41,722 bases of DNA from the NCBI GenBank assembly GCA_017461865.1, contig JAFTVQ010000111.1:1-41722 (forward strand), given 5' to 3'. Under the pieces are notes generated by a model that did no database searches, was not told the DNA's origin, and saw nothing but the letters and a program-made list of their open reading frames with translations. Within the stretch, counting starts at the first letter, position 1. Each line of letters opens with the position of its first letter. A program made the translations under genes and the position numbers. Below are positions 1,803 through 14,226 of this stretch, piece by piece. Source of the DNA: Lachnospiraceae bacterium. Lineage in GTDB: Bacteria > Bacillota > Clostridia > Lachnospirales > Lachnospiraceae.

Positions 1803-2222
1803 CTATCTGTTTCGATACTGATGTTGTATAGTTATATACTTATTAAGAGCATCGGTTATATCCTCGTTACCAGCAATAATCAGATATGATGAATCCCATA
1901 CATGTCTATCTTGAAGATCTTCCTGCAGCTCCGGTAAGCGGATCTGTATTTTTTTTGCAGAACCACCTTTTAAAGATTTAATCAAATCCGGAAGATAATG
2001 CTGCGGTCGGCAATTCATAATCAAATGAATATAATCCTCTCCTATATCAAGTTCCTGAATCTTAATTTCTTTATCTTCTGCTATTGCATACAAAATATCC
2101 TTAAGAACGTCCCTTCGCGATTCGCTTGTAAAAACAGTCTGGCGGTTCATCGTACACCATGCCAAATGGTACGTAAGATTATATATATATCCTTTCCTGG
2201 CTTCTAGTTTTATTTCCAACAC
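1803..2222 (-). CDS. IS200/IS605-family TnpA-like Y1 transposase, altered HUH motif
   Basis: This 139-residue protein matches the single-domain Y1 transposase fold. It has an N-terminal NLTYHLAWCT strand, then GEDYIHLIMNC where the family has H-U-H, the PQHYLPDLIKSLKG segment, VWDSSYLI, and a C-terminal NKYITIQ. Tyr129 is the expected nucleophile and Gln133 the usual metal-helper position. The first HUH histidine is replaced by Tyr64 (codon TAT at 2031-2033); His66 is kept. The length is typical of the family (about 130-155). GAGGTG precedes the ATG by about 6 nt. No TnpB or RNA-guided nuclease gene is adjacent. Transposition activity is doubtful with a broken metal site, although the frame is intact. 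Confidence 0.8.
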   Translation of the reverse strand: MLEIKLEARKGYIYNLTYHLAWCTMNRQTVFTSESRRDVLKDILYAIAEDKEIKIQELDIGEDYIHLIMNCRPQHYLPDLIKSLKGGSAKKIQIRLPELQEDLQDRHVWDSSYLIIAGNEDITDALNKYITIQHQYRNR

Positions 2223-2286
2223 AATTCACCTCGATTCATACGATTATTATGAACAACATTAGTAAAGCTTGATATCATGAAAATTT

Positions 2287-5200
2287 CTATTTCTTTATCT
2301 TCACACTCTTATCTACTTTTTTCTTCAAAAGCTTCTTATACGCCTTCAGCTTGCTCTTCGGCACCTTAATTGTCGCATTCTTCTTAATTTTCTTAAATGC
2401 AGAGGATCCAACGCTTTTGAGTTTCTTACTCTTAATCGTTACTTTCTTAAGTGCCTTACAGTTATAAAAAGCTTTCTTTCCTATTGATGTTACCTTTGAT
2501 GGAATCGTAATGGATTTTAATTTCTTGCATCCATAAAAGGCATTTTTACCAATTTTCGTTACAGAAGATGGAATTGTAATCTTAGTCAATTTACTATGTC
2601 CATTAAATGCATTGGATCCAATCTCTGTTACTTTATATCTCTTACCGCCATAAGATACTGTAGATTTCAGACTATAGGTTTTCTTATTTCCCAATGCTTC
2701 GGTAATTATTACATTATCTCCGTCAAAAGTATAAACAATATTCTGTATCGTAATTGATTCCGGTCTTGTCACATTTGTCTCCGGAGAAGGTACTTTCTCA
2801 GTTCCTCCCGTAACTGTAATCTTATAAACAAGCGTTTGGCCAATCACATCATTTGATTTAATCGTCAGTGTCGCTGTGCCGGCAGAAACAGCCTGGATTT
2901 CACATCCTGCATTTCCACCATTATAAGTGACATACGGCTGTCTAACCACTTTAAAAACTGCGTTATTTGAAGATGTTGCGGATAAAACTTCATGATAATT
3001 GAACGGATTATCACAGGTTACCCAAAAGCTAATCACGCTGATTCCACCGGCGTTCATACTGATTTCCTGCTGTGCCGGGAATCCTGCCGTGATAGAAGCT
3101 GCTCCATCATATGCTATGACAGTAATCGTTTCTGAAAGATTGCTGCCATCAGTAGCCGTTGCCGTCAGTGTTGCTTCTCCGGAAGCCACTGCTGTAAGAA
3201 TTCCATTTGTATAACGAATCACTTCGTATCCGGATGTGTTATTTACTGTATAAGAAATAGAGCTATCTGCATCCGCAGGAAGCAGTTCTGCCGAGATTTT
3301 CTTACTTTGTCCCGCTGTCATGTATAATGTATTGTTTTCAATACCAAATGTAACTGTATCTGCCATCTGCTTGATAGTTACTTTGCAAGAAGCCTTTACA
3401 GCAGGTGTTTCTGTTAGATATGCGTCAACCGTAACAATCCCTTTTTCCAGTGCAGTAAGTACACCATTTTCATCAATTTCAGCAAGATCAGTATTATCTA
3501 CAGACCACGTGAAATCAGAAGCCTCGTTTCCAATAAATCCATCTGCAAATACCGGCACCATCTTAATCTCGGATCCTGTTGTCGTACTTGTATCTACAAG
3601 CTTAAAAGAAGAAGTCTTTACTATTACCGAACAGCTATCACTACTCTTTCCATCATAAGAGGTTGCAATAATCTCGCACTGTCCGACTCCTTTTGGTGTT
3701 ACCTTTCCGTTTTCATCTACCGTTGCAACGGATTCATCCGTAGAATAATAGGTAAAACTCGGAAAGCTGGCATTAGCTGGAAGGAGCGTTGCAGAAAGTG
3801 TTGCCGTTGTCTGATCCGTTAAAGATAACGACTCTTTGGAAAGCGTAAGGCTACTTGACAGCGTAATGTTTTCTGCTTTGTTGGTCAACGCCCGGCTTCC
3901 ACCAAGATAAACACGTTCTCCCTCCTCAATGCAAATAACGAAGATGCCACCGTTTGGCACGTACAACGGGTCAGAACTGATATCAAGGGTGTACCATCCG
4001 GTATAATCCGAAGTTCCGGTAAATGTTTTTGTTTTGCCCGAATAACTGATCAGTTTTCCGTCTTTTATCACAGGATTGGCATACAAAGTTAATTTATATG
4101 GCGTATTACAATTAAGATAGGTCATAACGCCCTCTACTTTTTCGACTGCATTTTCACCATATGCTTTTGCCGTGTAAAATCCCGGATTATTTTCGTCCGG
4201 TTCATACAAATATATATTTTCATATGTCTCTGCACTGTCCATCTCAATAGCAAAAGGATCCATTAAATTCGGATCATAATAAGATAACCAAAAATAACCA
4301 TTAGATTGAACTCCATTTGCACCTATAACCATACCCCATGAATTTTTACAAAGCCAGGCTCCATCCGCTTTTGGTGCTACCAAGAAATTCTCCTTTGAAT
4401 AATCATCATCCCATCCCACTATTTCAATGGCGTGATTAGTTTCTTTTATGTTATATGGATAATAATAATTTGCTTCGCCACCCTCTGTTGGTGTAATATA
4501 ATAGGAACCGTAATCATAATAGGAAGCAGATACGCCACCATAATTCGAAATCAAATATTTCACATCATCCCAGGTACTTACATCGTTTTCATCATAATCA
4601 CAATGCTTAGAACCTTTAAAATGCCAGTAATTCTTATTGGTTAACGCTTCATCCAGCACCCATGCATTAATTTCATCCGCAGTCGGATCTACCGGAAGAT
4701 ATTTTCCAGTTGCTATCTCATACTCCATTTCATTATAAAACGGAGCTTCCGAATCATAAACCGGCCCTACCCATTTCGATAATTCATCAATTACAGATTC
4801 AGACACACCACCATCCAAACATTCCGCAAATGTATGATTGCTTTTATGCTTATCCACCTTATAATTACCAAGTCTGTCTTCATAACCATAATGATCAAAA
4901 TATGCAAGCTGCACTTCAGAAAGATCAATATCACTGGTCGCCAAACCTTTATGAATCAGATTCGATTCCACAGCTGCTACTCCTGCAAAGAGCCAACAGG
5001 TACCACCCACCTGAGTTCTGACTGCAGATACTTTGTTTTCCGTTCTCGGATCATATTTCGCCGGATAAGACACAGTAGCACTCGAACCTTCTGCAGTAAT
5101 ACGATCTGCTGTAATTCCCCCGCTTTTCTTTTTATTCCAATTTGGATTACCATAGCTGATACCGCTGCTGATGGTACCGTTTGTAATCCCTTTTTCACGC

Positions 5201-5376
5201 AGATATGTTGCCAGGGCATTCTCTCCCGGTTGTTCTGTTTCTTCCATAATCACAGAATTTTCAGAAACGGAAACCATTCCCTGATCCGGATCACCTTCCG
5301 CTGCCATAGCCGGAACCGGCACAGCTGTAATTCCTACGATCATCGATAATAATAATACAAGTATGCGTTTCTTCAT
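2287..5376 (-). CDS. Secreted papain-family (C1A) protease with lectin-like, Big_2 and LRR_5 domains
   Basis: A 1029-residue secreted protein. The ATG at 5376 was chosen because a GGGGAG site precedes it and the signal peptide (MKKRILVLLL... to about AMAAEG) starts there; the longer frame from 5403 adds nine unlikely residues. Residues 105-360 form a C1A peptidase: Cys127 in GGTCWLFAG, oxyanion Gln122, His315 in NHAIEIVGW and Asn345 in KNSWG. A lectin-like domain follows (about 375-490, as in clostridial C1A proteins), then two to three Ig-like Big_2-type domains (about 500-850). Four LRR_5/BspA-type repeats come next (IGSNAF, IGKNAFYGC, IGKKAFYNC and so on), then a Lys-rich tail. No LPXTG is visible. 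The catalytic residues are all present, so it is probably an active extracellular protease. The next gene downstream is the IS200-like tnpA, 64 bp away. Confidence 0.88.
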   Translation of the reverse strand: MKKRILVLLLSMIVGITAVPVPAMAAEGDPDQGMVSVSENSVIMEETEQPGENALATYLREKGITNGTISSGISYGNPNWNKKKSGGITADRITAEGSSATVSYPAKYDPRTENKVSAVRTQVGGTCWLFAGVAAVESNLIHKGLATSDIDLSEVQLAYFDHYGYEDRLGNYKVDKHKSNHTFAECLDGGVSESVIDELSKWVGPVYDSEAPFYNEMEYEIATGKYLPVDPTADEINAWVLDEALTNKNYWHFKGSKHCDYDENDVSTWDDVKYLISNYGGVSASYYDYGSYYITPTEGGEANYYYPYNIKETNHAIEIVGWDDDYSKENFLVAPKADGAWLCKNSWGMVIGANGVQSNGYFWLSYYDPNLMDPFAIEMDSAETYENIYLYEPDENNPGFYTAKAYGENAVEKVEGVMTYLNCNTPYKLTLYANPVIKDGKLISYSGKTKTFTGTSDYTGWYTLDISSDPLYVPNGGIFVICIEEGERVYLGGSRALTNKAENITLSSSLTLSKESLSLTDQTTATLSATLLPANASFPSFTYYSTDESVATVDENGKVTPKGVGQCEIIATSYDGKSSDSCSVIVKTSSFKLVDTSTTTGSEIKMVPVFADGFIGNEASDFTWSVDNTDLAEIDENGVLTALEKGIVTVDAYLTETPAVKASCKVTIKQMADTVTFGIENNTLYMTAGQSKKISAELLPADADSSISYTVNNTSGYEVIRYTNGILTAVASGEATLTATATDGSNLSETITVIAYDGAASITAGFPAQQEISMNAGGISVISFWVTCDNPFNYHEVLSATSSNNAVFKVVRQPYVTYNGGNAGCEIQAVSAGTATLTIKSNDVIGQTLVYKITVTGGTEKVPSPETNVTRPESITIQNIVYTFDGDNVIITEALGNKKTYSLKSTVSYGGKRYKVTEIGSNAFNGHSKLTKITIPSSVTKIGKNAFYGCKKLKSITIPSKVTSIGKKAFYNCKALKKVTIKSKKLKSVGSSAFKKIKKNATIKVPKSKLKAYKKLLKKKVDKSVKIKK

Positions 5377-5426
5377 AAAAGACTCCCCTTCCCCACCTAA
5401 CAAGGTGCCAGCATTTCTTTTATTTT

Positions 5427-5455
5427 ATTATATCATACGAAAGACAATATGTCCA
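5427..5455 (-). promoter_or_regulatory. Predicted sigma-A promoter of the C1A protease gene
   Basis: On the minus strand TGGACA (5450-5455) is separated by 17 bp from TATAAT (5427-5432), about 50 bp upstream of the chosen start codon. Confidence 0.65.
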
Positions 5456-5547
5456 GTATTTATCAATATTATGTTACTATTTTATATAATCATACGTTCC
5501 TCACTTCGAGTAATATTACACAGAAACAGTAATAGTTTTTTACAACC

Positions 5548-5576
5548 AAAAAAGACCAGGGAGAACCTGGTCTTTT
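5548..5576 (-). terminator. Terminator of the small peptide gene
   Basis: An 11-bp perfect stem (5550-5560 with 5566-5576, core gaccagg/cctggtc), loop of 5 nt. On the minus strand it ends in a six-T run (5548-5553). It lies 38 bp downstream of the stop codon of the 21-residue peptide gene. Confidence 0.85.
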
Positions 5577-5613
5577 CGGGGGTATTATTACCCATTTTCT
5601 TTTTGCGTTAAAA

Positions 5614-5679
5614 CTAAAGTCTCGTAACATCAATCAACATTGTAATATCGATTAATCTTGTAATATCTGCTGTTTTCAT
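5614..5679 (-). CDS. 21-residue hexad-repeat peptide (candidate small gene)
   Basis: An ATG at 5679 opens a 21-codon frame ending in TAG at 5614-5616. The peptide is MKTA followed by three six-residue units: DITRLI, DITMLI and DVTRL. It has a purine-rich GAGAG site 6-8 nt before the ATG, a consensus-like promoter 36 bp upstream of the start and an intrinsic terminator 38 bp downstream, so it reads as a complete transcription unit in an otherwise empty gap of about 450 bp between two surface-protein genes. It has no signal peptide and is only moderately hydrophobic. I do not recognise the family. It could be a signalling or regulatory peptide, or the frame could be incidental to a small RNA. 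Confidence 0.5.
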   Translation of the reverse strand: MKTADITRLIDITMLIDVTRL

Positions 5680-5714
5680 AGTAATCTCTCTTTTTCTTTC
5701 CCTCATTTTCCACT

Positions 5715-5743
5715 ATAATACAAAAAATTTTTACAACAGGCAA
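5715..5743 (-). promoter_or_regulatory. Predicted promoter of the small peptide gene
   Basis: Minus strand TTGCCT (5738-5743), 17-bp spacer, TATTAT (5715-5720). The predicted transcript start is near 5708, giving a leader of about 29 nt before the peptide ATG. Confidence 0.65.
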
Positions 5744-5781
5744 GATTTTCTTTACTATAGTGCAAATTTGTGTCTCTCTAC

Positions 5782-5813
5782 AAAAAAGATCCCCGGAGAA
5801 ATCCGAGGATCTT
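5782..5813 (-). terminator. Terminator of the InlB/LRR_5 surface protein gene
   Basis: The stem 5786-5796 with 5803-5813 has one mismatch (aagatcc ... ggatctt core) and a 6-nt loop. A six-T run follows on the minus strand, starting about 20 bp after the stop codon at 5834. Confidence 0.8.
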
Positions 5814-5833
5814 CTTGTCGATTAATATATTAA

Positions 5834-8800
5834 TTAATACTTCCCTTTTAACAAACCAGAATAAGATGATATTTTGCTGTTAGGCACTTTAAATACAATG
5901 TTATTTTTACATTTTTTAAATGCCTTGCTTCCAACACTAGTCAATGCTCTGGAATTAATGGTTACTTTTTTCAGTTTTTTACAATTATAGAACGCCTTGC
6001 TTCCAACGGTCTGTACTTTTGAAGGGATTGTGATTTTTGTAATCTTAGCACAGTTCCGGAATGCATTGGATCCGATTTTCGTCACTGATTTTCCAATTGT
6101 TACACTCTTTAATTTTTTACAGTTATAGAATGCTTTATTTGGAACATTAGTAAGCTTGGAAGGCATCTTAATATTTGTTAATGACTTACAGTTGTAAAAA
6201 ACACCCGTTCCCATGCTGAGAAGCTGAGATCCGGAAACGAATGTTACCTTTTTCAACTTAGTACATTTTCCGAATGTATAGGTGCCAATCTTCAGAACGG
6301 TTTTCGGAATAGAAATCTTTGTCAATGCCTTACAATTATAGAACGCCTTGTTCCCGATCTTAACCAATCCATAATTAAGTTTCACAGTTTTCAATGCTGT
6401 ACAATTTTGGAACGCATTGTTTCCAATCGTCTTTACTGTAGATGGCAACGTTATGCTCTTTAACGAAGTACATCCATAGAATGCACGGTTGCCAATCGTT
6501 ACCAATCCTTCATGAAGCGTTACTTTTTCAAGTCCTGTACATCCTTCAAATGCAGAATTTCCAATCTTACTGATATTTGCTGAAAGAACCACTTCTTTTA
6601 ACTTTTTATTGTTATAGAAAGCTTTATTGTATATCTCTGTAATACGATATACTTTATCTCCAATTTTGATCACATCCGGAATTACTACTTTCGAAGCCTC
6701 GGTCGTAATAAACTTGATTCCCAGCGTTCCATCCGGATTCTGAATAATCTCATACTTTGCTCCATCGATATCCATGCTGAAGGATAAACCTGCAGCCAGT
6801 TTTTTAATAATCTCATTAATCTGAATATCTGTAAGCCCACCTGTGCTTGGAGCTACCGGTTGCACTGCAGTTCCTTTCTTTACACAGTCATAGTAATATT
6901 TTACGACTAATCCATCACTGACTGTAATCGTCTGCAATGCCGGTTTCTGACACTCGCAGCCATCCACCTTATTCACGTAATCCACTGCGCCCTGGTTGTA
7001 AGGTGGAGTAGTTACGGTTCCGGTTGCAGCCTGCCATGTATCTTTTTTATAAAGACCATAGCTTCCCGTCGGACTTGTCTTCACATAATGCTCCACATAA
7101 TATTTTACTATTTCATCAGATTTAACATTGTAGTAGAAATCAATCACGGTACTGCCATCACCGGCAATCGTTACCATCTGGGCATCCGGTGTCTCAAAGC
7201 CTTCTACCGTTTCTGCAGGTACTGTAATCGTGGAATCTGTTGTACCATACCTTACTTCCGTACCCGGAAGAGGACACACAAACCTGTTTCCCAGATCGTC
7301 CTCAGCCACATTTTTATATGCATTCGGATCTGATTTATCAGAATTATTTTTATTTTGCTGGAAATAACGATTGATGGTATAAGGTGTTCCGGTGCTTGCA
7401 CTCCAGCTTGCAGTCAAAGCTACCGTAGCTTCATTATCTGCTGTCAGATTTTTTGCTGTTTCTTTGTAGGTACCACCGGCCCCGGTCCATCCGTTAAATA
7501 CATAACCATCTTTTACCGGTGTCGGAAGCTCTACTTCCACATCGTAAGTCGCAGCAATTGTTTCTACCGCTGCATCTTCATCGTTTTCTTCATAATCGAT
7601 GTCTGTCTCAAAAACTCCACCGTTTGCATCCAACTGAACATCGTAATTATTAGCCGTCCAGGATGCGGTAGCTGTCACATTTTTCGTCGGGGTATAAGTT
7701 GCACCTGCCGCTCCGATATCCCACTTACTGAACTGATATCCGGTTCTTGTGGCTGACGGAAGCTTAATCGATGCCGGATTCCATAATGCATACATGGTTA
7801 CGGTACCATTTGATGTTGTTGTCAGATTGCTGTAAGTTGCACCTGCTGCATGTGTCACTTTTGCCGGTGTATTGGCTCCCCAACCTTTAAACGTATAATT
7901 GGCCGTCTGGGATGCTTCGTCCGATATACCACCGTTCCCATTATAGGTAACAGTGTAGTTTCTTGAGAAACCATTACCCTGTGTCGTATATGCTTTTCCA
8001 AAAGTACAATTCTGCGCAGAAACGCCACCACTGGTTGATCCGTTTCCATTGTAGTTCACGTTGTAATTGATTGGAACCAGTGTAATAGTCTGTGTAAGAT
8101 TTTCCCCTGTAAAACTGGTAGTTCCGGACAATCCAACACCGGCCAAACTATATGCATTAACCAGTGATATCAACTTGATTGTCGCCGCATACGTAGATGC
8201 ATTGTATGCAGTCATACGTTCATCTACCGGATAAATACGACGCACATCCGAATTCGTCAACTCTTTTGTCGACGTAGTTACATAGCTTGCCCCATAATCA
8301 TAATATAACTTATGCATAGAACTGGTACTCGAATATGTAACCACAGCCGTATATCCTGCCGGCTTATTATAAGTCATGTTCGTTAAGACTGTCGTATAAG
8401 TGGAACCACCTAATGACGCATAGCTATTTGTATTACCGGAATAACACGTAGCACCGCACCAGTTTATTCCGGATATGGTAGGTGTCAGTTTCAGAGACTG
8501 CGATTCTCCCCAGGTTACGTCTTTATCAAATCCGGTTATTTTGTGCTTAATGGAACATGTTTGTCCATTTACGCCATTGACAATGTTGGTCGTCCAGTAT
8601 CCAGATGTATTACTCGGATAAGAAGCATACACTTCACCGGCCATAGACTCGTATACTTCAAGTGCATATTCATATACGGTCTGATATTCTTCTTCTGCAA
8701 CACCTTCCTTTGGAATTACACTGTGAAGATCCGTGTTTCTGGCAAGCAGCTCGTTAAGATCTGCTTCTGACATGGCATTCAGCCACACACCGATTTCATA

Positions 8801-9031
8801 CCAGTCTTTCATCATGACCGCATGGCTGATTGCTTCATCTGTGCAGTTTTTCCAATCAAGCGCCATTAAATCCAATGTTTTTAAAAAATCATCGTTATAG
8901 ACAAAATGACCGGTATCTTCTACAGGCGTCTCTTCTGCCTTTGCAGGTAACAGAGGTAAGGCGGTAAAAATCATTGCTGCACACAGCATCAGACTTATCG
9001 CCTTGGTTAATAGTTTCATTTTCTTTTTCAT
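5834..9031 (-). CDS. Large secreted InlB-repeat / LRR_5 (BspA-like) surface protein
   Basis: A 1065-residue protein. The start at 9031 is set by AGGAGGAGACAAAG directly before the ATG and by a signal peptide (MKKKMKLLTKAISLMLCAAM ... LPAKAEE); the 20 extra codons upstream are leader. The N-terminal ~300 residues are Tyr/Thr/Ser-rich and of unknown fold. Listeria-Bacteroides (InlB B-type) repeats follow, with signatures YNVNYNGNG, YTVTYNGNGG, YDVQLDANGG and KDGYVFNGWTG. A MucBP-like stretch comes next (YYVEHYVKTSPTGSYGLY). The C-terminal ~330 residues hold about eleven LRR_5 repeats (IGNSAFEGC, IGNRAFYGC, IGNNAFQNC and so on). No sortase motif is visible. It is probably a secreted or loosely attached adhesin; the role is inferred from domain types only. 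Its tail resembles that of the C1A protease gene next door. Confidence 0.85.
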   Translation of the reverse strand: MKKKMKLLTKAISLMLCAAMIFTALPLLPAKAEETPVEDTGHFVYNDDFLKTLDLMALDWKNCTDEAISHAVMMKDWYEIGVWLNAMSEADLNELLARNTDLHSVIPKEGVAEEEYQTVYEYALEVYESMAGEVYASYPSNTSGYWTTNIVNGVNGQTCSIKHKITGFDKDVTWGESQSLKLTPTISGINWCGATCYSGNTNSYASLGGSTYTTVLTNMTYNKPAGYTAVVTYSSTSSMHKLYYDYGASYVTTSTKELTNSDVRRIYPVDERMTAYNASTYAATIKLISLVNAYSLAGVGLSGTTSFTGENLTQTITLVPINYNVNYNGNGSTSGGVSAQNCTFGKAYTTQGNGFSRNYTVTYNGNGGISDEASQTANYTFKGWGANTPAKVTHAAGATYSNLTTTSNGTVTMYALWNPASIKLPSATRTGYQFSKWDIGAAGATYTPTKNVTATASWTANNYDVQLDANGGVFETDIDYEENDEDAAVETIAATYDVEVELPTPVKDGYVFNGWTGAGGTYKETAKNLTADNEATVALTASWSASTGTPYTINRYFQQNKNNSDKSDPNAYKNVAEDDLGNRFVCPLPGTEVRYGTTDSTITVPAETVEGFETPDAQMVTIAGDGSTVIDFYYNVKSDEIVKYYVEHYVKTSPTGSYGLYKKDTWQAATGTVTTPPYNQGAVDYVNKVDGCECQKPALQTITVSDGLVVKYYYDCVKKGTAVQPVAPSTGGLTDIQINEIIKKLAAGLSFSMDIDGAKYEIIQNPDGTLGIKFITTEASKVVIPDVIKIGDKVYRITEIYNKAFYNNKKLKEVVLSANISKIGNSAFEGCTGLEKVTLHEGLVTIGNRAFYGCTSLKSITLPSTVKTIGNNAFQNCTALKTVKLNYGLVKIGNKAFYNCKALTKISIPKTVLKIGTYTFGKCTKLKKVTFVSGSQLLSMGTGVFYNCKSLTNIKMPSKLTNVPNKAFYNCKKLKSVTIGKSVTKIGSNAFRNCAKITKITIPSKVQTVGSKAFYNCKKLKKVTINSRALTSVGSKAFKKCKNNIVFKVPNSKISSYSGLLKGKY

Positions 9032-9132
9032 CTTTGTCTCCTCCTTCATTAATAGATGATCTATATAAAGACAAAGACGTACATATAACATATTCTCAAG
9101 GCTAGTTTATATGCTGCTTTTCAAAAAAACAA

Positions 9133-10015: not shown

Positions 10016-10450
10016 CTACACCTCAACCCGGTTTTCCACTAATCCGAAGTCCTTACATATAATCTCAACAGCCATATCTTCATCCACCGTGTGGAGCCCC
10101 GGATAATAACCCAGCATGGTGTCGTATGTTATCTTTTGAACCAGCTGTGCGCTCATCACGCCGGTTACAATAAACAAATACCGGTACATAAAACCGATCC
10201 ACTCTACTGCATCAATATTGGTACCGGAATTATTATTAACCAGCTGATCCTCGATCTCCGGCATATAAAAATCATAGCATTCCAGTTCATCATGCACCTG
10301 GAATCGGGAATAGGTTGTATCCATGGCGCGTCGACAGAAATCGCACTTCAAATAAGCATCCGAAAACACTTTCATGTCGTAGCCTTCGTTCGCCATATAT
10401 CGGTATATACGTTGCTGCGTATAGCAGATATCATATTCAATACCTGTCAT
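10016..10450 (-). CDS. Conserved partner protein of DUF3990 (unknown function)
   Basis: A 144-residue soluble protein, mostly helical, rich in Tyr, Cys and acidic residues. It contains the segments YLKCDFCRRAMDTTYSRFQ, DAVEWIGFMYRYLF and YDTMLGYYPGLHTVDEDMA. I recall similar proteins next to DUF3990 genes in Clostridia, but cannot name a Pfam family with certainty. Its ATG lies inside the end of the DUF3990 gene (14-nt overlap), which indicates translational coupling. The metalloprotease gene follows after 5 bp. The tight coupling to an ADP-ribosyltransferase-like protein makes an antitoxin or regulator role plausible, but that is inference. No membrane segment or signal peptide is visible. 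Confidence 0.65.
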   Translation of the reverse strand: MTGIEYDICYTQQRIYRYMANEGYDMKVFSDAYLKCDFCRRAMDTTYSRFQVHDELECYDFYMPEIEDQLVNNNSGTNIDAVEWIGFMYRYLFIVTGVMSAQLVQKITYDTMLGYYPGLHTVDEDMAVEIICKDFGLVENRVEV

Positions 10451-11111
10451 AATTGATCACTCTCATTTCTTTTACCAATTCTTTCTGAATAATTTCGTTC
10501 AGATATTCTCCCTGGCGCTGATACTGCATCGCAGATCTCTTTACAATATCACGGCTTTCTTTTCTCTTCTGCTCCGTGAATTTTCTGATATCATCCGCTT
10601 CCTTTCCGAAAATGGAACGCTCTGATATAATTTCTATTTTGCTGCAGGCAAACTCTGACTTGGCCACATACTGCATCCCGTAATCTACCGCTTTCAGACA
10701 CGCAGTCAATCCCTTATCGGTCAGAGCATAATCAGAAAAACGCTGCATTGCTTCATTCATGCGATCATCTGCAATCGGGCCAACAATCACATCGTATTCT
10801 TCCATTTTCTTAATAATATCTTTGGCCAGTTTGAGTTCATTAAACTCCGGACACTTCTTACGATTGGCAAGAACTGTGTAAATCCAGTCCTTTTCAGTCA
10901 GCTGCAAAATTTTCTCTTCCGGAATTTCCGACAACTTAAACTTCAACGTATAAAATACCGGCGCAGCATCTTCTATCACAAGACTTTTCGCCTGTTCCGG
11001 ACTTTCCCCCATATAAAAACCTTTCCCAAAATCACAGCGCGCACGGCTTAAAGGTACAATATCTCCCTCTAATCCACCACGGGATCCGTGATATAAAATA
11101 ATATCCTTCAT
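10437..11111 (-). CDS. DUF3990 protein, ADP-ribosyltransferase-like
   Basis: A 224-residue protein. The N-terminal half matches DUF3990: ILYHGSRGGLEGDIVP, then RARCDFGKGFYMGESPEQAK. His8 in YHGS and Tyr33 in GKGFY correspond to the first two positions of the H-Y-x motif of diphtheria-toxin/PARP-type ADP-ribosyltransferases, so NAD binding is likely; the third catalytic residue could not be assigned by eye. The C-terminal ~60 residues are helical and highly charged. The start has GAAAGGTAG about 8-10 nt upstream, and a good promoter lies 62 bp upstream of the ATG. It is the first gene of an operon with a coupled partner and an M48-like protease. A toxin-antitoxin or defence role is a hypothesis. 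Confidence 0.75.
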   Translation of the reverse strand: MKDIILYHGSRGGLEGDIVPLSRARCDFGKGFYMGESPEQAKSLVIEDAAPVFYTLKFKLSEIPEEKILQLTEKDWIYTVLANRKKCPEFNELKLAKDIIKKMEEYDVIVGPIADDRMNEAMQRFSDYALTDKGLTACLKAVDYGMQYVAKSEFACSKIEIISERSIFGKEADDIRKFTEQKRKESRDIVKRSAMQYQRQGEYLNEIIQKELVKEMRVINYDRY

Positions 11112-11269: not shown

Positions 11270-12628
11270 TCAGCTCTTGTAATGATATTCCGGTCCATTT
11301 CGTCCGGAGACAAGCTCAATAAGATCTGCATCGAAAAAATCCAGTTCCTTTTCTTCCGGTATCGGAAAAAGTTCTTTATACACACGTTCCCAATGTTCCG
11401 ACTGCCGATATGCCATCGGTGTCTTTAGTGCTCGCATGACTTTCTTTACGACCTTCAAATCGGCATAACAAGTAGCCCTGGATATTCCAAGGCGTTGGCC
11501 AATCTCTGTCGGCGAAAATCCATATGTAAGAAGCTTGTACACCATTCTGCGACGCTGATAAATCTGCACCGACTTAGTGTCCTTTCCTGCGTTTTTAAGA
11601 CGTTTTACGTACGCCTTGTGGTTTTCTCTCCGCTTATGCTCTTTGCGCCGTTCCTTGACCGCCAGAGACGGCATCTCAGCCATCTCCTGCTCACTCAGAT
11701 CAAGAAACTCTTTCATCGTTTCATTTGTCATCCGGAAGCTGCAGCCTTCTTCAAAATACTTCTGCGCTGACTTTGTCGCTTCCATTACCTCTTTTTCAGA
11801 AAGTGGATTCTTCAGCTGCTGATTCAGCTTCAAAGTTGCCTTTAACCCGGCGTCAGAATCCCCATAAACACAAAGATAATAATAGCGATATAAGAATAGG
11901 ATATTTTCCCGGAAAGCTTCCTCTTGATCTCTATGATGCAATAGCAGGTATTTCAGGTCTCGGATCCGAGAAACAAGAAACTTTTTCCCGGTTTCATATG
12001 GTATAAAACGCTCATTGATCTTTGATCTGACAGCCAATATCGGATCCGGCATAAATTCCTGCCGAATCTCATACAGTGTATATTTCCGTTTGTAATCCCG
12101 GATAATTTCCACCACCTGTCCGGATTTTTTATTGACGGAACCCGGAATTCTAAATACTCGGGCGCAGTCTGTAACCACACTACGATCTGCACCAAATTCC
12201 TTCAGCTGACTATACAAATACTCCTGCACCGTCTTCCAGCGTGGCAAGGCATTGACGTGCTCATCAATGCGCCACAGAAGATACAATCCTCGCCCGGATG
12301 ATACAACATAGCTCGGTACCGGAATAGATCTGTTGAAATAATTTTCTTCCAGATTCATTAATATTTGATGATTGCTGTACCCGGTATGGTAGGTGTCAAG
12401 ATCCATGTAAAGGAACTTCAGACATCTTACATGTTCCTGGTCACGACGGATCTTTCGTTCTCGATACATCAATGTGTTGAGGCTCATATAGTGATCCGTC
12501 TCGGCCGGAACCTCTGCAATCTTTTCCGCCTGGTAGCAATAGGTATGTACGCCATGAACGTTCATGATCATTTTGGCCAGGATGTCATTTTTATTGTAAT
12601 TTGCTTCTATGAAACTCTTTTGCATCAT
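11270..12628 (-). CDS. Replication protein with AEP-type primase domain and C-terminal HTH
   Basis: A 452-residue protein. The N-terminal ~200 residues look like a RepB-type archaeo-eukaryotic primase. FLYMDLDTY supplies the metal-binding D76xD78, SSGRGLYLLW (110-119) is the nucleotide-binding sGrG loop, and ADRSVVTDCARVFRIPGSVNKKSG (147-170) matches the D-x6-R-x-h-R-h-P-G-x-x-N block of this superfamily. The C-terminal part is Lys/Arg-rich and holds an HTH (YGFSPTEIGQRLGISRATCY). Such proteins start or prime replication of plasmids and integrative elements. GGAAG precedes two tandem ATGs (12628 and 12625); the second has better spacing. It lies 12 bp after the accessory gene, and the pair is preceded by an attenuator-like leader. 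Not a housekeeping DnaG. Confidence 0.75.
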   Translation of the reverse strand: MMQKSFIEANYNKNDILAKMIMNVHGVHTYCYQAEKIAEVPAETDHYMSLNTLMYRERKIRRDQEHVRCLKFLYMDLDTYHTGYSNHQILMNLEENYFNRSIPVPSYVVSSGRGLYLLWRIDEHVNALPRWKTVQEYLYSQLKEFGADRSVVTDCARVFRIPGSVNKKSGQVVEIIRDYKRKYTLYEIRQEFMPDPILAVRSKINERFIPYETGKKFLVSRIRDLKYLLLHHRDQEEAFRENILFLYRYYYLCVYGDSDAGLKATLKLNQQLKNPLSEKEVMEATKSAQKYFEEGCSFRMTNETMKEFLDLSEQEMAEMPSLAVKERRKEHKRRENHKAYVKRLKNAGKDTKSVQIYQRRRMVYKLLTYGFSPTEIGQRLGISRATCYADLKVVKKVMRALKTPMAYRQSEHWERVYKELFPIPEEKELDFFDADLIELVSGRNGPEYHYKS

Positions 12629-12640
12629 ATCTTCCTTTTT

Positions 12641-13108
12641 CTACATGTTTTTGTAATGCTCTATTACCTTTTTAAATTCTTCTTCCTTGGAAAGATGACC
12701 GCAGACATTTTCCTGAAGAAACGAATTCCAAATCTTCTGCAGCTCTTCCTCTGCTTCTTTCATGTCTTCCCGGTACATCTTTTTCTTTTTTTCATGAATG
12801 TAAGCGTCCGCAATCAAGGCACGGTTGTAATCGCGGAGGTGATAATGATTAAAAAACTCATCGATTTTGTATTCCCGGAGCAAATATGCCAGGAATTTAT
12901 TTTCCGGTTCGGCGCCAAACCAATGGCTGCTATACCACTGATTGATGTAAAAAGCTTCCGTATTTTTCGCTTCTTCCTTTTCCGCAATCAAATCACGCAC
13001 AAAGCTCTCCAGCAGTTCTTCCGTGGTTAGTCCTACTCTCTCTGCTCGATGACGAAACCGCTCCCAATCTTTTTCTGATAACCGGTCTTTCATTGATTCT
13101 GTTTTCAT
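12641..13108 (-). CDS. Replication-module accessory protein (unknown)
   Basis: A 155-residue, highly charged, helical protein not recognised by family. The N-terminus (MKDRLSEKDWERFRHRAERV, then GLTTEELLESFVRDLI) has the look of a short helix-turn-helix or ribbon-helix-helix-type segment. An aromatic-rich middle (FYINQWYSSHWFG) and a Glu/Lys coiled C-terminus follow. AAGGAGAG about 6-8 nt upstream supports the ATG at 13108. Its position directly before the replicase gene and directly after a terminator-like hairpin suggests that both genes share regulation at the leader. Function could be copy control or replication accessory; this is inferred from location only. Confidence 0.6.
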   Translation of the reverse strand: MKTESMKDRLSEKDWERFRHRAERVGLTTEELLESFVRDLIAEKEEAKNTEAFYINQWYSSHWFGAEPENKFLAYLLREYKIDEFFNHYHLRDYNRALIADAYIHEKKKKMYREDMKEAEEELQKIWNSFLQENVCGHLSKEEEFKKVIEHYKNM

Positions 13109-13131: not shown

Positions 13132-13171
13132 AAAAAAGCAAGCGGATACTTCCCAAACGTACCTACTTGCT
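13132..13171 (-). terminator. Attenuator-like hairpin in the replicase operon leader
   Basis: Arms 13137-13149 and 13159-13171 pair at 11 of 13 positions with a 9-nt loop. On the minus strand the stem is followed by six Ts (13132-13137) and then, within about 15 nt, by the RBS of the 13108 gene. A terminator in front of the first ORF fits transcription attenuation. Confidence 0.6.
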
Positions 13172-13191
13172 AAAAAGTTGCATTTCTTATA

Positions 13192-13220
13192 TTGACAAAA
13201 TGCTGATTATTCCTTAATAT
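13192..13220 (+). promoter_or_regulatory. Strong promoter facing away from the replicase operon
   Basis: Perfect TTGACA (13192-13197), 17-bp spacer, TAATAT (13215-13220). It reads rightward, against the surrounding genes, into a gene-free stretch that ends at a terminator. Confidence 0.75.
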
Positions 13221-13226
13221 AATGTA

Positions 13227-13363
13227 TATACGTTTGTTTAAGGCTTTTACAGTTAGCCTTATGTTTGGTAGTTGAGGTACCTACAGAAACGATTTTGTGC
13301 GCCAACACAATTTCGAAACTGTTATTATGAAATTAAAGCTTCTGCTCTGCAGGAGCTTTTTTT
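13227..13363 (+). ncRNA. Candidate countertranscribed RNA (~136 nt) antisense to the replicase leader
   Basis: The RNA is bounded by the consensus promoter at 13192-13220 and the intrinsic terminator at 13335-13363. No convincing ORF with an RBS lies inside. It can fold into several hairpins: aaggct/agcctt near 13240-13260; a loop region carrying gtacctac (13277-13284); and cga..ttgtg/cacaa..tcg near 13291-13316. It is opposite in direction to the replicase operon, between its leader and the upstream gene. This matches the layout of antisense copy-control RNAs of theta plasmids such as the pIP501 type, though no sequence homology is claimed. Confidence 0.5.
13335..13363 (+). terminator. Terminator of the candidate antisense RNA
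   Basis: Arms 13335-13345 and 13349-13359 pair over 11 bp with one wobble (aaagcttctgc with gcaggagcttt), 3-nt loop, then seven Ts to 13363. Confidence 0.85.
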
Positions 13364-13896
13364 CATGGCAAAATTCCATGAACCTGTTCCAAAGCCTGCT
13401 GATGCAGCGCGCTGTAAACATTGTCCACCAGCTTCTGCACTTCCGGCTGTTTGGAACTGTAGCTTTGCGCTTTATGCCCTTCTTTTATATCTTTCAGTGT
13501 ATTTTCTTTCCCGGTCAGCTGATCGAGCTGCCGGATATCCGTAATCAACTGCTGCGTCGGACAATATCCTGAATGGCGGATCATCCGCTGGATCCGGTCG
13601 ACAGATAAATCTCTTTTTGTATCCTCCATCATCCGATCAAACATCTGAAATGCATCTGTGATTTTCTGCTTGCCCATCTTCAGCGCATCGATCTCCTTCA
13701 AAAGCTGCAGCTTAGTTTCCGTTAAATGCTCAATTTCCCTTTCCATCTGCGCATGTTTGGACGGATACTCCAAATAAAACTGCAGAAGATTCGAAAGCTT
13801 ATCGTTAAAACTTTTTCCCTTAAATGCATCAACGAAGATATATTGCTCCTCGGATATCCGCCCCGATATTCGCATCGATTTTAATTCTTCACTCAT
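13363..13896 (-). CDS. Putative plasmid-type DNA-binding protein with coiled coil
   Basis: A 177-residue protein. The ATG at 13896 has AGGAAG six nt upstream; the ATG at 13902 sits directly against the RBS, and the longer frame to 13926 is unsupported. The N-terminus (MRISGRISEEQYIFVDAF, then KGKSFNDKLSNLLQFYLE) resembles a ribbon-helix-helix fold: a basic strand then two helices. A clear heptad coiled coil follows (about residues 55-90, MEREIEHLTETKLQLLKEID). The rest is helical and polar. The domain assignment is by eye and not certain. Location upstream of the replicase module and next to an inverted repeat fits a copy-control or partition regulator. Confidence 0.6.
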   Translation of the reverse strand: MSEELKSMRISGRISEEQYIFVDAFKGKSFNDKLSNLLQFYLEYPSKHAQMEREIEHLTETKLQLLKEIDALKMGKQKITDAFQMFDRMMEDTKRDLSVDRIQRMIRHSGYCPTQQLITDIRQLDQLTGKENTLKDIKEGHKAQSYSSKQPEVQKLVDNVYSALHQQALEQVHGILP

Positions 13897-13924
13897 AGTC
13901 ATCTTCCTTTTAGTGCAATAAAAC

Positions 13925-13967
13925 AAGGTGCATAAAAGCTAGTATTTATCTACCTTTTACACACCTT
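13925..13967. repeat. Imperfect inverted repeat upstream of the putative regulator gene
   Basis: aaggtgcataaaag (13925-13938) and its near-complement at 13954-13967 match at 12 of 14 positions. The repeat sits 29-71 bp upstream of the 13896 start codon, where an autoregulatory operator would be expected. Confidence 0.5.
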
Positions 13968-13980
13968 ACTATTCATAACA

Positions 13981-14226
13981 TATGTGGATTCTCTCGATTG
14001 GAAGGACTATGGCTGCGACTCCATCATAAAAACTGTCTGTGGGCATAAGCACCTCGGCAACGGTTCCATCATTCTATGCCACAACGGCGCTACTTACACC
14101 GCCGATGCACTGGATGCCATGATTACCGGTCTGAAGGAGCAGGGATATGAAATCGTTCCCGTGTCGGAACTGATTATACGCGATAACTATCATATGAACA
14201 CAGAAGGACGCCAGATTGCAGATTAG
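13981..14226 (+). pseudogene. C-terminal fragment of a NodB-type polysaccharide deacetylase
   Basis: About 80 residues of coding sequence beginning with VDSLDWKDYG and continuing through SIILCHNGATYTADALDAMI, then EQGYEIVPVSELI. These match the last third of Gram-positive polysaccharide deacetylases, including the SLDW and HNG segments. The metal-binding and catalytic N-terminal part is missing, and in-frame sequence upstream of 13981 is not similar. There is no RBS before the GTG at 13984. The gene is therefore a 5'-truncated remnant whose breakpoint coincides with the edge of the replication module. A hairpin at 14206-14238 (ggacgcc/ggcgtcc) spans its stop codon and may be the old terminator. 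Confidence 0.75.

Follow-up and report, generated by a model that had tools for sequence, protein, structure and literature searches.

Is the expression of a replication operon in a Lachnospiraceae bacterium set by a small RNA transcribed against its leader? The question arises from a contig of 41,722 nt (here the window, meaning the whole stretch of DNA analyzed), for which a sequence-only reading had proposed an antisense-RNA attenuation switch resembling the copy control of pIP501 and pT181. We find it probable that the + strand gives rise to a counter-transcribed RNA (about 13227-13362) by which expression of the rep operon is set through attenuation. On the sequence signals described below, this would be a well-supported case, ordinary in kind and new in setting, of antisense attenuation control in an integrated element.

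The rep operon and its attenuator

The operon lies on the − strand and encodes, in order, a 155-aa protein (12641-13108), the replication protein Rep (452 aa; 11270-12628), a DUF3990 protein (224 aa; 10437-11111), a 144-aa protein, and an M48-type peptidase. Rep carries a RepB_primase (AEP) domain and a helix-turn-helix (HTH); no Pfam match to PriCT_1 was found in it, and the Rep of locus L061 gave only a weak one. Small plasmids of Clostridium-group bacteria carry homologues with 37 to 41% identity; plasmids of Paraclostridium, Clostridioides, and Geobacillus, among others, carry more distant ones. Viral contigs yielded no matches to single proteins and 15 loci when searched with the Rep alignment. 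A profile of 14 Rep sequences matched pAMbeta1 RepE with an hhalign probability of 95.7% (E = 1e-8), the alignment spanning most of the length, beginning around the DxD motif and ending at the C-terminal HTH; Rep is likely a distant relative of RepE.

The N-terminal part of the 155-aa protein is shared with proteins encoded beside mobilization genes on plasmids of Clostridia (pCD-METRO) and with proteins encoded beside ADP-ribosyltransferase genes on Enterocloster plasmids (loci L021-L024 in all); a DUF3990 gene is likewise found downstream in the operon of the window. Upstream of the leader, the − strand encodes a 187-aa protein (13363-13926), which matched no Pfam or PHROGs family and, in NCBIfam, only MbpA below threshold; no gene for a CopR-type HTH repressor was recognized there.

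A terminator hairpin followed by U6 forms the attenuator of the operon leader (13132-13171, − strand; hairpin 13171-13137). It ends directly 5' of the ribosome-binding site (RBS) AGGAGAAAGGAGAG, with the ATG of the 155-aa gene at 13108, and its energy of −14.2 kcal/mol (z = −3.3) was equaled in 1 of 200 shuffles. Position and fold energy thus bear out the proposal that a terminator hairpin stands ahead of the first RBS. The 8-mer gtacctac was also correctly located at 13159-13166 and 13277-13284; the antiterminator derived from it, GTACCT with AGGTAC, is a 6-bp match at chance level, expected in 19% of shuffles, and was dropped. In its place, folding of the growing leader points to the segment CAAACGTAT (13236-13228, − strand), predicted to form a helix of 8 to 9 bp with GTACGTTTG (13162-13154) in the 5' arm and loop of the attenuator. 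The 8 contiguous Watson-Crick pairs of this helix are matched in ~3% of shuffles, in a test made post hoc, and its duplex energy with interruptions allowed is no better than in shuffled leaders (P = 0.58); CAAACGTAT/GTACGTTTG is therefore a weakly supported candidate antiterminator in the window. In the folding model, the attenuator has a predicted probability of 0.08 or 0.50 in the free leader, varying with the ends taken, and of 0.98 when the antisense-covered leader is masked. Since 30% of shuffled leaders do equally well, this outcome is compatible with a switch and not proof of one. In the collections searched, close homologues of the leader DNA were found neither in the genus nor in plasmids.

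The predicted antisense RNA and its recurrence

On the + strand, opposite the leader, a promoter at 13192-13220 (TTGACA at 13192-13197, a 17-nt spacer, and TAATAT at 13215-13220) is followed by an intrinsic terminator at 13335-13363 (stem 13335-13359, then T7). As had been proposed, promoter and terminator are present where they would bound an RNA of ~136 nt, and together with the attenuator they are confirmed at the level of the sequence. From their spacing, the predicted RNA (13227-13363) would begin within the rep leader, be complementary to it, and end at the terminator. A perfect TATAAT at 13218-13223 offers a second candidate −10 element, but with a spacer of 20 nt. Because 6% of shuffled versions of this intergenic gap have a 10/12 promoter on one strand, the promoter alone is weak evidence. 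The predicted RNA folds with −37 kcal/mol (z = −3.0) into hairpin 1 (13239-13261; UAAGGCU...) and hairpin 2 (13283-13322), the latter indicated both by the fold and by enrichment in the family. The loop of hairpin 2 at 13300-13305 is CGCCAA, which on the mRNA reads as the U-turn loop UUGGCG. The terminator has no plausible + strand gene to serve, and an Rfam search, at the gathering score and at a relaxed E value, returned no meaningful family.

These parts suggest a switch between two folds. In one, leader segment CAAACGTAT would pair with GTACGTTTG, blocking the attenuator, and transcription would continue into the 155-aa gene and rep. In the other, the antisense RNA would bind the leader, first at the exposed UUGGCG loop, and mask CAAACGTAT; the attenuator would then form and transcription would stop ahead of the RBS. 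As the antisense RNA would be made from every copy, rep expression would drop as copy number rises. We infer that the + strand RNA is made, that it controls transcription termination, and that its target is the copy number of the excised circle.

If the layout has a function, it may be expected to recur. The regions upstream of 45 homologous rep genes, that of the window included, were gathered and scanned by a script that requires three signals: an attenuator a short distance before rep, a promoter for an antisense RNA, and, 70 to 230 nt further on, its terminator. The triple was present in 11 of the 45 regions, including the window, compared with 2 matches in 2250 dinucleotide-shuffled regions (0.04 expected); the combination is not due to chance. 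Hairpins of −12 kcal/mol or better with a U-turn loop (UUGGCG, UUUGGCCG, or UUUGGUCG) were found in 12/45 regions, against a shuffle mean of 0.2. The loop is on the mRNA in L026, L027, L048, and the window and on the antisense RNA in L015 and L025, as in pAMbeta1. In three loci, L015 (Paraclostridium bifermentans pHD0315_2-6), L050, and L061, the antisense-covered leader can pair over 13 bp, without a mismatch, with the 5' arm of the attenuator, and the antiterminators of L025, L026, and L044 are significant by duplex energy. Among L015, L025, and L050, every attenuator and antiterminator pair is kept despite substitutions. L033 passes the script and has no antiterminator; it is doubtful, and we therefore leave it out as a supporting example. 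For L027, the script picked a distant terminator, while a nearer one bears the U-turn loop. pAMbeta1, the positive control of the script, was not scored as positive because its antisense terminator went unrecognized.

The same layout upstream of homologous rep genes supports the antisense and attenuation reading of the locus. The expectation that homologous loci would share promoter, terminator, and attenuator holds for many of them and fails for the closest relatives of the window Rep (L006 and L009-L014), in which the antisense module is absent. In the one Rep tree built, module-bearing loci are clustered without forming a single clade and the module is patchy; the place of the window, itself a long branch, is uncertain because of long branches. 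We suggest that the module may date back to the divergence of the window's Rep group from RepE, or else that it moves between replicons. At L007, a perfect 12/12 sigma-70 promoter is directed against rep, 155 nt before its start, and is not followed by a strong terminator.

Comparison with known copy-control systems

Antisense attenuation has been worked out in the pIP501/pAMbeta1 (Inc18) plasmid family (PMC4981023, PMC5703833), where RNAIII of pIP501, 136 nt in length, attenuates repR transcription (PMC4981023). The predicted RNA of the window is of about the same length. In pAMbeta1, an 11/12 antisense promoter lies 94 nt and the attenuator 35 nt before the small open reading frame (ORF) preceding repE; the corresponding distances in the window, 83 and 29 nt, are nearly the same. 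Further likenesses are a UUUGGC-type loop in an antisense hairpin, with GGUUUGGCAA as the loop stretch of the antisense RNA predicted for pAMbeta1, and an AEP-type initiator with HTH to which Rep is probably remotely homologous. Thus, the pIP501-type comparison made by the sequence-only reading is sustained by the recurrence of the layout and by the likely kinship of Rep and RepE. Unlike in Inc18 plasmids, the window Rep matches RepB_primase and not PriCT_1 in Pfam, no CopR-like gene was recognized upstream, the mRNA and not the antisense RNA bears the U-turn loop, and the module sits in an integrated element with a serine recombinase. The longest-match antiterminator test applied to pAMbeta1 itself gave 6 bp (P = 0.31) and did not single out this plasmid either. 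The small ORF of pAMbeta1 was considered as a counterpart of the 155-aa gene and rejected, there being no similarity between the two.

The attenuator/pre-emptor logic is also that of RNAI and repC in pT181 (PMC5703833), where RepC, however, is of the Rep_trans type and not an AEP primase, and RNAI is 87 nt long. In PMC5862659, the RepE/RepS and PrimHYQ AEP primases are described as an AEP domain followed by PriCT-1 and HTH and as frequent in chromosomally integrated mobile elements, with RepE/RepS tied to the gut microbiota; antisense control is not dealt with in these passages. pIP404 was set aside as a model; a paper on a relative of it makes no mention of antisense RNA. Antisense control for the Rep group of the window is not described in the literature that we found, which covers the field in part.

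With the present case, antisense attenuation would reach beyond Inc18 and pT181 plasmids to primase-HTH replicons, a broad group across Bacillota to which the integrated element of a gut bacterium belongs. L015, L050, and L061, with their strong antiterminators, are ready test cases.

The integrated element and alternative readings

Sister genomes have a whole polysaccharide deacetylase gene, of which the window holds only the 3' part, from 13982/13984. The 5' part is on another contig of the same genome (C108), followed by foreign DNA that encodes a large serine recombinase of 502 aa with an intact frame. Both junctions, the right end of the element at 13982-13989 (+ strand) within the deacetylase gene and its counterpart at G000:C108:1893 (L079), share the core ATGTGGAT, and in the inferred joint the core is flanked by the imperfect inverted arms CATAACAT and ATGCGTTAT. 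The element is integrated in the chromosome, splitting the deacetylase gene; what had been guessed from the window is now tied to a mapped insertion site, with the core at both ends and the recombinase at the other end.

From the right end of the element, the rep operon points inward. The best sense promoter near the leader scores 8/12, with none above. An 11/12 promoter (TTGAGA-17-TATAAT; 2.3% of shuffles) is found at C108:1786-1814, at the 3' end of the recombinase gene, and would face the rep operon only after circularization. The 187-aa gene is separated from the element end by a strong hairpin with a U-rich tail (13919-13963, − strand; −21 kcal/mol), which might stop transcripts from that promoter, insulate the operon from read-in, or act as a further attenuator. 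It is conceivable, and on balance rather doubtful, that rep is gated twice, its strong promoter being supplied only in the excised circle and the antisense RNA then setting circle copy number; we offer this as a suggestion and not as a result. If true, an integrative element would use antisense copy control of the plasmid type in its free stage and keep it silent while integrated. With the present case, it becomes testable in integrative elements whether the free circle is under RNA copy control of the plasmid style.

Integration, together with the failure to find a good sense promoter near the leader, would also fit a control region that is a fossil, out of use in the integrated element, or a rep gene that is never transcribed when integrated. 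The open frames of the 155-aa, rep, and DUF3990 genes, the intact hairpins and antisense promoter, and the intact recombinase frame speak against disuse, and we hold it to be quite improbable. A functional antisense RNA could still exert its main effect on the translation or the stability of the mRNA, as in pSK41 or pMV158, and the hairpin could be a partial terminator that is minor or constitutive. Staphylococcal and streptococcal plasmids provide examples of antisense RNAs that act on translation (PMC5703833), and the weak antiterminator of the window would suit this reading. Yet the hairpin does not include the RBS AGGAGAAAGGAGAG and, like an intrinsic terminator, has U6 at its end, and several relatives have strong antiterminators; this mode of action seems unlikely to be the main one.

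The frequency of 10/12 promoters in shuffles and the chance-level GTACCT repeat would be expected if the + strand terminator and the − strand hairpin were unrelated insulating terminators beside a fortuitous promoter match. The + strand terminator, however, has no plausible gene to insulate, a U-turn loop hairpin is present, and the same triple stands upstream of rep in several Rep lineages, so that a coincidence of this kind is extremely improbable. We retain, as the probable reading, regulation of the rep operon by a counter-transcribed RNA acting through attenuation.

A 3.4-kb contig of the same genome (G000:C10; L081) encodes a relaxase (PF03432) and a second large serine recombinase and perhaps represents another mobilizable element; the relaxase was considered as part of the element in the window and set aside, as no link between the two was shown. 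On the element side of the junction, positions 1803-9091 of the window encode two large LRR (BspA-type) proteins, one of them with a papain-like protease domain, and an IS200-like transposase.
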